From positions 1 through 45,777 of the forward strand of contig RFGE01000101.1 of the NCBI GenBank assembly GCA_003696105.1: 45,777 nt of DNA, given 5' to 3'. The notes beneath the pieces were generated by a model that was not told the DNA's origin, made no database searches, and saw nothing but the letters and a program-made list of their open reading frames with translations. Shown piece after piece: positions 34,878-37,181 of this stretch (position 1 is its first letter; each line of letters starts with the position of its first letter). The translations under genes and the position numbers were made by a program. Source of the DNA: Deltaproteobacteria bacterium. GTDB taxonomy: Bacteria; Myxococcota_A; Polyangia; Haliangiales; J016.

Positions 34878-37181
34878 TCAATCCACGCGCACGCGCAACG
34901 ACAGGCGGGTCTGCTCCACGTTCGCCTTGAACTTGCTGCGCGTGTCGGTCACCGGGTCGTAGATCTCGACTTCGTGCTCGCCGAGCGACACGCCGATCCG
35001 CTCGGTCGGGCACAACTGCCCGGTCGGCGCACCGTCGACGTATACGTAGTAGCGGTTCTTCTTGCGGCAGCGCACCTTGATGCCGGCGCGTCCCTCGAAC
35101 GGCGTCACCTCGCGAAGCGTCAAGTCGACGCGGGCATCGCCGGCGACATCGGTGACGTACAGGTCGTACCCGGGGAGGATGAGCGCGAGGCGGTGTTGGT
35201 CCCCGGTCGCGTCGTCGATGCGCTTGGGCGTGCGTCCCACCTTGGCGCCGTCGAGGTAGATCGTCGCGCCGGCCGGCGTCGACCGAATGTCGAGCGCGCC
35301 GGCGACCGCCGCGCCGGCGTCGAGGTCGCCGGTCGGCGGGGCCGCGGCGACCGCCACGGCCCCGTCCGACCGCGCGGGCGCGCCGGCGTCGCCCGGCGGT
35401 GCGCCCGCGGCGGCGTCCCGCGCGTCGCGGCCCGCTGCGGCCCGCGCGCCGCCGTCGGCGACGCGCCCCGGCGCGCTCGCGGCGGCCGACGGTGTAGGTA
35501 CACCGGGCGCGCCCGGACCGGCCGCGGCCGGCAGGTGCGCGCCTGCGGCGGCGGTCGCCCCCGCGCCCCGATCGCGCGCCAGGGGCTCGCGTGCCCGCCC
35601 GCCGTCGAATCCGACGAACTCGGCATAGACGAAAAACCCCGCCCCCCCGGCCAACGCCGCCGCGATCCACACCAGCGCAACCCGGCGAAGCCGCACGGGA
35701 CGCGCGGGCGCGGCCGCCTGACCGCCGCCCGCCGCCTCGCCGCCGCCCGCCGCGTCGTGCGCCGCGACCTCCGCAGACCCGGTCGCCTCGGAAATCGCCG
35801 CCCCGCCGCGGGTCGCCGTCTCGCCGCCGGTCGCGGTGCCTGCCGCCTCCGACACGAACTCGACCTCGTACGATTCGAGGTCGACCACGTCCGGATCGCG
35901 CGCCCGCAACGGGGGCGACGCCGCGCGATCCGGCGCGAGGTCCAGCGTGCCCGGCACGGGCGCGGGCAGCGGGGTCACGTCGGACACGCCGTCCTGCGCG
36001 CGGTCACCGCGGATCTTGGTCGGCGCGTCTTCGTCCACGTCCGCCCGACCGCGCAGGCCGGCGGACAGCGCGCCGCCTCCCGCGCCCGCGGGTGCGGCGA
36101 CCCCGAGCACCGTCGGCCGCGGCGCCGGCACCGTCGCCGCGCGGTCGTCGACGGGCACGGGCGGCGGGGTCGCGCCGCGGTCGAGCGCACGCCGAAGCGG
36201 CGACACCGGCGCCGCCGGCGGTGGCGCCGGCAGCGGCACGGCGAACAGCCCCGACGCCTGCTCCTGCGCGGCCGCGTCGATGCGCCCGATCACCTCGCGA
36301 ACCACGCGCCCGGCGTCGCGCGCGTCGCCGGCCACCGCCGCGGCACGCGCCGCCGCTTCGATCGCGTCCGCCAGCGCGCCGGCATCGGCGTAGCGTTCGC
36401 CGGGCAGCCGCGCGAGCGCCCGGTACACGATCTCGAGCACCACCGGCGGCGCGTCAGGCTCCGGAAACCGGCCGGACAGCACCGCCTGGCCGATCTCGAG
36501 TGCGGACGGGCCGCGGAACGCCGGCCGCCCCGCAAGCAGCTCGTACAGCACGGCGCCGAGCTGGAACACGTCCGTCGCGGGGCCGGTCGGCTCGCCGACG
36601 ATCTGTTCGGGCGCCAGATACGGCAATCGCGCCGCGAGGGTCAGGTCATCCGCCGGCCGCTCGGGCAATCGCGGCGGCAGCAACCCGAAGTCGGTGACCT
36701 TCACCTCCCCGTCGGGTACACACAGGATGTTGGTTGGGCAAACACCGAGGTGCGTGCCGCCGCGGCCGTGCACGTAGGCGACCGCGCGCGCCGCGCGCAG
36801 CGCGATCGCCAGGGCGGCGCCGGCCGGCAGCGGATGGCCGGCACCGTGAGTCGCCTGACCGAGCCGCATCAGGTCGACGCCGGCGACGAACTCGACCGCC
36901 GCGAACGTGCGCCCGCCGGCGACCCCGAACTCCTGCAACCGGGCGATTCGCGGGTGCTCGTAGCCGCTGTACCGACGCGCCGCGCGCGCCAGCGCGTCGG
37001 ATGCATCGCGCCGCGCCGCCAGCTCGGCGTGAAACAGCTTGACCGCGAACTGGCGCTCGAAGCCGGCGACGCCGTAGACCTTCGCGCGAAACACTTCGCC
37101 CGTCGGGCCCCCGCCGATCGGCTCCACGAGGTGGTACCGGCCCAGCTTGCGCCCCGGGCCGCCGGTGCCCGAAAGGCTCAT
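34878..37181 (-). CDS. PEGA-domain pseudokinase
   Basis: Kinase-fold protein of 767 residues. Residues 15-280 keep the kinase outline: glycine loop IGGGPTGEVF, AVKLF with Lys48, VTDFG (Asp164) and LAPEQIVGE. The HRDxxxxN loop reads HLGVCPTN, so the catalytic Asp is Gly146. The alpha-C Glu position reads Ala67 (RAARR where kinases have REAR). Catalysis is therefore unlikely, though nucleotide binding may persist. A long Ala/Pro/Gly-rich linker leads to a membrane helix (ALVWIAAALAGGAGFFVYAEF, about 497-517). An extracytoplasmic PEGA domain (GALDIRSTPAGATIYLDGAK) and a beta tail follow. It converges with the sigma54 activator, 14 bases apart. A scaffold or regulatory role for the neighbouring kinase is inference. 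Confidence 0.9.
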   Translation of the reverse strand: MSLSGTGGPGRKLGRYHLVEPIGGGPTGEVFRAKVYGVAGFERQFAVKLFHAELAARRDASDALARAARRYSGYEHPRIARLQEFGVAGGRTFAAVEFVAGVDLMRLGQATHGAGHPLPAGAALAIALRAARAVAYVHGRGGTHLGVCPTNILCVPDGEVKVTDFGLLPPRLPERPADDLTLAARLPYLAPEQIVGEPTGPATDVFQLGAVLYELLAGRPAFRGPSALEIGQAVLSGRFPEPDAPPVVLEIVYRALARLPGERYADAGALADAIEAAARAAAVAGDARDAGRVVREVIGRIDAAAQEQASGLFAVPLPAPPPAAPVSPLRRALDRGATPPPVPVDDRAATVPAPRPTVLGVAAPAGAGGGALSAGLRGRADVDEDAPTKIRGDRAQDGVSDVTPLPAPVPGTLDLAPDRAASPPLRARDPDVVDLESYEVEFVSEAAGTATGGETATRGGAAISEATGSAEVAAHDAAGGGEAAGGGQAAAPARPVRLRRVALVWIAAALAGGAGFFVYAEFVGFDGGRAREPLARDRGAGATAAAGAHLPAAAGPGAPGVPTPSAAASAPGRVADGGARAAAGRDARDAAAGAPPGDAGAPARSDGAVAVAAAPPTGDLDAGAAVAGALDIRSTPAGATIYLDGAKVGRTPKRIDDATGDQHRLALILPGYDLYVTDVAGDARVDLTLREVTPFEGRAGIKVRCRKKNRYYVYVDGAPTGQLCPTERIGVSLGEHEVEIYDPVTDTRSKFKANVEQTRLSLRVRVD

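Follow-up and report, generated by a model that had tools for sequence, protein, structure and literature searches.

What could a kinase fold without its catalytic Asp do in a protein that is predicted to span the membrane? This question is raised by the gene found at positions 34878 to 37181 of the window, which means here the whole stretch of 45,777 nucleotides that was analysed and which belongs to a genome of 5.34 Mb. The initial annotation saw in this gene a likely pseudokinase, and suggested a regulatory scaffold instead of an enzyme. According to a 2025 review (PMC12599244), bacterial pseudokinases are largely unexplored experimentally; the same source defines them by the lack of at least one of three residues (beta-3 Lys, HRD Asp and DFG Asp), and describes seven pseudokinase-rich families out of the 42 of a kinase atlas that it cites (PMC12233097). 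As regards M. xanthus, 99 such kinases are given, 11 of which are reported as pseudokinases (PMC6791715).

The protein and its catalytic motifs

The features of the gene, all of them on the minus strand, are the following:

34878..37181 (-), putative pseudokinase gene, 767 amino acids, ATG start; kinase fold, Pro/Ala-rich linker, predicted transmembrane helix, proposed tandem PEGA
36330..37142 (-), kinase-fold domain, residues 14-284 (NCBIfam and Pfam ranges)
37038..37040 (-), Lys48, beta-3 nucleotide Lys, retained (alignment)
36981..36983 (-), Ala67 at the alpha-C Glu position (alignment)
36729..36752 (-), catalytic loop HLGVCPTN, residues 144-151, with Gly146 (36744-36746) in place of the HRD Asp
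36684..36692 (-), DFG, residues 164-166, retained (alignment)
35622..35690 (-), predicted transmembrane helix, residues 498-520 (AlphaFold helix 498-522; hydropathy)
35142..35300 (-), PEGA domain 1, residues 628-680 (PF08308, 1.5e-13)
34884..35090 (-), probable second PEGA-like domain, residues 698-766, with Cys705 and Cys724 (alignments, AlphaFold)

Only two Pfam families are matched by the 767-residue protein, Pkinase at residues 16-229 (3.4e-22) and PEGA (PF08308) at 628-680 (1.5e-13, 50.9 bits against a cut-off of 20.8), which bears out its description as a kinase-fold protein with a PEGA domain; no NCBIfam model reaches its own cut-off. The closest solved fold listed is that of PknA (4ow8), with a Z of 31.4 and an rmsd of 2.4 Å over 268 aligned residues, and this result together with the Pkinase match identifies a bilobal Hanks-type kinase fold. 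In the AlphaFold model the ten-residue blocks of the kinase domain have mostly pLDDT values of 75-95, while most of the linker stays below 50. This linker, predicted to be cytoplasmic, extends over about 214 residues between the kinase fold and the transmembrane helix. A single transmembrane segment is predicted, at about residues 498-520, by both AlphaFold and hydropathy, in agreement with the membrane-spanning topology that had been put forward.

The motif positions were set by means of a profile in which the 767-residue protein was aligned with 20 kinase stretches from the same genome. In this alignment the HRD Asp corresponds to position 146 and the alpha-C Glu to position 67, and the protein reads AVK, Ala67, HLGVCPTN and DFG, with Asn151 kept. 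The profile confirms what the initial annotation had stated, i.e. the change of HRD to HLG (Gly146) and of the alpha-C Glu to Ala67, together with the persistence of the nucleotide Lys (Lys48) and of DFG (164-166). An active Ser/Thr kinase carries the HRD catalytic Asp and a Lys-Glu pair, and this protein has neither; with the HRD Asp missing, it falls within the sequence definition of a bacterial Ser/Thr pseudokinase. The Lys position of HRDxK is occupied by Cys148, which is uninformative taken alone because many Asp-bearing kinases of the same genome have Ser or Thr there.

The own-genome baseline consists of 107 matches to the 767-residue protein used as query, so that kinases too unlike it may be absent; motifs were read in 19 loci, 80 further stretches and the window, at 25 bits or more, and one further stretch that did not cover the catalytic loop was left uncounted. 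The HRD Asp is present in 99 of the 103 readable stretches, and its loss is therefore rare in this genome. The alpha-C Glu is found in 98 of the 99 Asp-bearing stretches and in none of the four that have no HRD Asp: both losses go together in the window's genome.

Three other kinase-fold proteins of this genome (L221, L232 and L236/L318) have neither the HRD Asp nor the alpha-C Glu, and their loops read HGHLHPGN, HRGLKPEN and HGAVHPRS, respectively. The frame of L236/L318 has PEGA matches, but it does not match the Cys-type C-terminal profile described below.

Conservation in the order and in the class

A scan of contigs from other genomes gave 13 loci, in 12 of which there are relatives with 50-56% identity; their assemblies are recorded under Myxococcales, Deltaproteobacteria, Proteobacteria or Kofleriaceae. 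The remaining one (L033, 27% identity, from another phylum) was set aside, and three further loci were left out, two as copies (L035 of L022 and L039 of L024) and one as the window itself (L034). Eight residues (K48, H144, L145, G146, P149, T150, N151 and D164) are invariant across the 13 aligned sequences. Because of these relatives and of the invariant motif residues, the reading frame 34878-37181 is to be taken, on the strength of its conservation, as genuine and not as a chance one.

In the window's order, nine of 13 genomes, its own included, carry the gene (1e-55), and no match at 1e-45 was obtained among the best candidates (up to 85 per genome) from 25 genomes of other orders. The 19 sequences read from the order, a count that leaves out three matched genomes (G076, G106 and G111), all have Gly at the Asp position, which bears on the conservation of G146 that had been proposed as a check, and all of them keep the Lys, the Asn and the DFG Asp; one (L041) reads HGG instead of HLG.

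The search for the wider family, at 1e-12, covered 116 genomes from the class and used an alignment of the C-terminal region that contains no kinase residues. This C-terminal profile gave 61 matches in 37 of the 116 genomes, among the best 35 candidates per genome, and 50 of these matches fall outside the window's order. One of the 50 (L072) had already been included, 40 of the other 49 were retrieved and nine were left out, two of them located in L255 and L256, with their loops unread. A readable kinase domain is present in 36 of the 40 retrieved members; in L130, L138, L149 and L151 there is no kinase domain and the frames run into the contig end.

All the readable members from outside the order (37/37) have lost the HRD Asp as well as the alpha-C Glu, and in the whole family read both residues are found in 0 of 56 members, the window's A67 position included. 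The Asp position is occupied by Gly in 43 members, Ala in eight, Leu in four and Ser in one; these 56 rows include close relatives, and so they are not 56 independent events. The beta-3 Lys is kept in 44 of the 56 members, the loop Asn in 44 and the DFG Asp in 51, and the loops of some relatives read HGGLWP or HGALWP. Since the Lys, the Asn or the DFG Asp has been lost in some members in which the fold and the C-terminus persist, any function shared by all members of the family should be independent of ATP chemistry.

In a tree calculated after removal of the motif columns, 40 family domains lie on one side of a branch with an SH-aLRT of 85, a value that comes from a quick tree search and is below the program's mark of 95. 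The family rows are those of the 56 that passed filters of coverage, score and 85% identity, and the active-type rows are 40 of 97 own-genome kinases, i.e. both window kinases and 38 taken at random. The Asp-less kinases L221 and L232 fall outside the family in this tree, and L236 failed the filters. The simplest reading of these sequences would be that the Asp and the Glu were lost once, and that the nucleotide residues disappeared unevenly afterwards. A clade as a whole shares the loss of the Asp and the Glu, for which reason it is not a one-off error, and the view of the protein as a likely pseudokinase, with both residues absent in 56 of 56 members, is strongly supported at the level of sequence; the 767-residue protein presumably does not carry out phosphotransfer.

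The C-terminal region

Although Pfam matches only the first PEGA copy in the 767-residue protein, AlphaFold models the C-terminal region with a pLDDT of 95.9 as two seven-strand units. In an alignment of 18 C-terminal rows, all of which match PF08308 (18/18), the Cys-Pro pair at 724-725 shows no variation and Cys705 hardly any. The model and the alignment suggest that the C-terminus is a tandem PEGA and that a disulfide is probably formed in its second unit. Of the 679 PDB matches obtained at E <= 10 with the model of the tandem, none reaches E <= 0.001; a new fold is not proved by this.

The possibility that PEGA itself marks pseudokinases was rejected, as the domain is also found in Asp-bearing kinases. 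The window's own genome has 62 PEGA matches, some of them in Asp-bearing kinase frames (C142 with L002, C14 with L004). In the same phylum there are Ser/Thr kinases that, like the 767-residue protein, combine kinase and PEGA. Five of them from outside the family were found through weak matches to the C-terminal profile, four in other classes and L330 in the window's class, and both the HRD Asp and the alpha-C Glu are present in all of these (5/5).

Gene neighbourhood

The genes that surround the pseudokinase in the window are, on the plus strand:

31862..33433 (+), active-type Ser/Thr kinase with HRDISPSN, C-terminal predicted transmembrane segment and 23-residue tail
33514..34863 (+), FHA, sigma-54 activator (AAA+) and Fis-type HTH protein (listed ORF 33301-34863)
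37300..38124 (+), alpha/beta hydrolase, lipase-like (Pfam)
38171..39097 (+), FHA and DUF4388 protein (Pfam)

The vicinity of an active-type kinase and two FHA proteins, on which the scaffold idea had been based, is real: the HRDISPSN kinase is located at 31862-33433 and the FHA ORFs at 33301-34863 and 38171-39097. Start 33514 of the FHA/sigma-54 activator fits the orthologues better than 33301 and is probably the true one. The order in the window is thus active-type kinase, FHA/sigma-54 activator, pseudokinase on the opposite strand, lipase-like hydrolase and FHA/DUF4388 protein. Due to its opposite strand, the pseudokinase is not co-transcribed with the partner kinase. Sigma-54 sites (-24/-12, up to two mismatches) in the window amount to 10 matches against 12.12 expected and, as there is no excess, no promoter is claimed.

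The four partners are present in the same arrangement in nine of the 12 named orthologous loci; in the other three the contig ends before the activator, and both partners on the remaining side are there. All four also accompany the pseudokinase in L086, and L085 has the pseudokinase, the lipase and FHA/DUF4388, with the activator absent from the retrieved stretch. Outside the order, seven of the 20 loci examined are in the module and 13 elsewhere. Four loci of other orders (L238, L242, L251 and L254) have all the partners, L246 has the lipase and FHA/DUF4388 with the activator some 8 kb off, and L257 and L239 are in the module but cut by contig ends. L072, also from outside the order, has the activator and FHA/DUF4388, with no lipase or partner kinase in the retrieved stretch. 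These data indicate a real, conserved family of predicted membrane pseudokinases, which in its own order and in some others is placed within an FHA/sigma-54 module.

Among the 13 loci outside the module, L244, L247, L255 and L256 have two further kinase domains (207-283 bits) nearby, and in L255 and L256 two pseudokinase paralogues flank one pair of other kinase domains.

Two loci keep the module without the pseudokinase. L070 contains the activator, the lipase and FHA/DUF4388, with no room for a pseudokinase between the activator and the lipase, in a stretch that starts at the first base of the contig, so that any upstream kinase is out of view. L069 is the same and has the kinase in addition. 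Their genomes (G031 for L069, G017 for L070) gave no family match among the best 35 candidates per genome. It follows that the module can do without the pseudokinase. A late insertion of the pseudokinase was considered from these two loci and dropped, given that other orders show the same arrangement; that the L069 and L070 lineages have lost the gene would be the simpler explanation.

As for other genes of the region, the 29 class genomes searched at 1e-30 all have a relative of FHA/DUF4388 (29/29), 28 of them as a single match, and the protein is a near-universal FHA protein of the class. Positions 39108-40888 (-) contain two overlapping ORFs with metallo-beta-lactamase folds, relatives of which are located near FHA/DUF4388 in several loci (e.g. 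L021, L069, L070, L072, L085 and L239).

Comparison with known systems

PknA/PknB-type Hanks kinases have the same fold, but they are active, whereas the 767-residue protein has no catalytic Asp or alpha-C Glu. The other systems are compared as described in PMC12599244. MviN (ActPs3) of M. tuberculosis is likewise a bacterial pseudokinase whose partners are an active kinase and an FHA protein, and works as a phospho-Thr scaffold with FhaA. MviN reads VALT / Lsidhpsr / Y-- in Table 1 of that review, whereas the 767-residue protein keeps Lys and DFG and, unlike MviN, has a PEGA region and adjoins a sigma-54 activator. In type VII secretion, EssB/YukC is also a membrane pseudokinase with a non-catalytic scaffold role, but all its motifs are degraded and it belongs to a secretion machinery, not to an FHA/sigma-54 module. 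SelO (YdiU), a pseudokinase AMPylase, resembles our protein in having the Lys, the loop Asn and the DFG Asp without a canonical HRD; the 767-residue protein differs as a predicted transmembrane protein without the alpha-C Glu, SelO's own alpha-C Glu being outside the comparison.

The GLW family, compared by its description, is mostly proteobacterial, with a transmembrane segment after the kinase domain and no HRD, as in our case; it has Leu or Trp for the beta-3 Lys and GLW in place of HRD, in contrast to the Lys48 and HLG found here. In ActPs3 the VAIK, HRD and DFG motifs are degraded together, and here AVK and DFG are kept; ActPs2 is described with Arg for the beta-3 Lys and Asn for the HRD Asp, and here Lys48 and Gly146 are found. 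CP1 is given as a family without transmembrane segment and linked to COG3899, whereas the present protein has a predicted segment and Pfam matches to kinase and PEGA only; DLHK keeps the HRD Asp and has no transmembrane segment, as opposed to the HLG and the predicted segment of our protein. The DYD family, with the beta-3 Lys substituted, is placed in actinobacteria and firmicutes. By their descriptions in the review, the family is set apart from ActPs2, ActPs3, GLW, CP1 and DLHK. The literature search found no name for it, and it may belong to another of the 42 atlas families.

Proposed mechanism and alternatives

In the 16 copies of the partner kinase that were retrieved, the predicted transmembrane segment is followed by a tail of 7-60 residues (16/16), so this protein is by its predicted layout an active-type kinase domain without room for an envelope sensor. 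The kinase of L069 is equally sensorless, though it has no pseudokinase beside it. On the side of the activator, a Thr located just before the FHA domain was seen by eye in the copies listed, within a VT[AS]L[LI][DE]-like motif in most of them (L069 and L238 read TRII). GarA and OdhI are switched by a phospho-Thr just before their FHA domain.

A sensorless kinase, an Asp-less pseudokinase with a sensor-like region and an activator with such a Thr have led us to think that the pseudokinase binds the kinase and relays an envelope signal. The kinase fold in the cytoplasm, which lacks both the Asp and the Lys-Glu pair, would serve as a binding or allosteric partner, most likely of the module's active-type kinase, and the tandem PEGA on the envelope side would sense, or anchor to, an envelope ligand, in such a way that the pseudokinase would supply the sensing that the partner kinase lacks. 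It would thereby control the phosphorylation of the FHA/sigma-54 activator and perhaps that of FHA/DUF4388 too. We give this mechanism a slight preference over all others together; its presumptive parts are the orientation in the membrane, the contact with the partner kinase, the direction of control and the ligand. As the Asp is lost in all the relatives examined and the setting in the own order is mostly the module, the protein probably steers the pathway instead of phosphorylating. In this respect the regulatory scaffold, and not the enzyme, proposed at the beginning gains support from the synteny in the own order and some others and from the apparently complementary architecture of the partner kinase.

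More tentatively, both proteins could form a split receptor, in which a sensorless membrane kinase and a kinase-dead, Cys-bearing tandem-PEGA sensor subunit switch the FHA/sigma-54 activator, their pairing being older than the divergence of several orders. This logic is comparable to that of the receptor/pseudokinase heterodimers of animals. The sensorless kinase of L069, which has no pseudokinase, speaks against an obligate pair.

The nearest rival to the proposed mechanism is a phospho-dependent scaffold similar to MviN, in which the kinase would phosphorylate a Thr of the linker, recruiting an FHA protein to the membrane, with the kinase fold as docking surface. The module does hold a kinase and two FHA proteins, the linker offers 214 cytoplasmic residues, and MviN is a precedent (PMC12599244). 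The linker (about 290-497) is otherwise poorly conserved, yet a T-x-[LMIVF]-G-hydrophobic motif recurs in it, mainly in the window's order, and is present in 16 of 56 proteins (11 of the 16 from that order) against 4.09 expected from shuffles. This excess is to be read with caution, since the motif was chosen after the linkers had been inspected, is not family-wide and comes from orthologues that are not independent, and we regard such a scaffold as possible but rather improbable. A repurposed enzyme, whose fold would bind ATP for another chemistry (AMPylation or glutamylation) like SelO and SidJ, is an unlikely explanation: K48, N151 and D164 are kept in 19/19 sequences of the window's order, where nucleotide binding or other chemistry may occur, and SelO is listed with WHLK / Hgvmntdn / DYG in Table 1 of PMC12599244, but the alpha-C Glu is absent in 56/56 and the Lys, Asn or DFG Asp is lost in other members of the clade. 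Even less credible is a kinase of weak activity in which another residue has taken over catalysis; it could invoke the retained nucleotide Lys and DFG, against which there is no Asp in the eight-residue loop of the 767-residue protein or of its 18 order relatives, and Gly takes the Asp position in 43 of 56 members. A decaying gene or an assembly error was rejected with near certainty, for although the frame is broken in two in one relative (L028), separate assemblies have the gene open and conserved, in most cases next to the same genes.

The preferred mechanism, that of a membrane-spanning allosteric partner, concerns a pseudokinase clade in which, in several orders, a single locus brings together a candidate kinase, the FHA/sigma-54 activator as candidate substrate and a sensor-like domain. 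Natural lineages without the pseudokinase exist beside those that carry it, and the role of bacterial pseudokinases is thereby directly testable.
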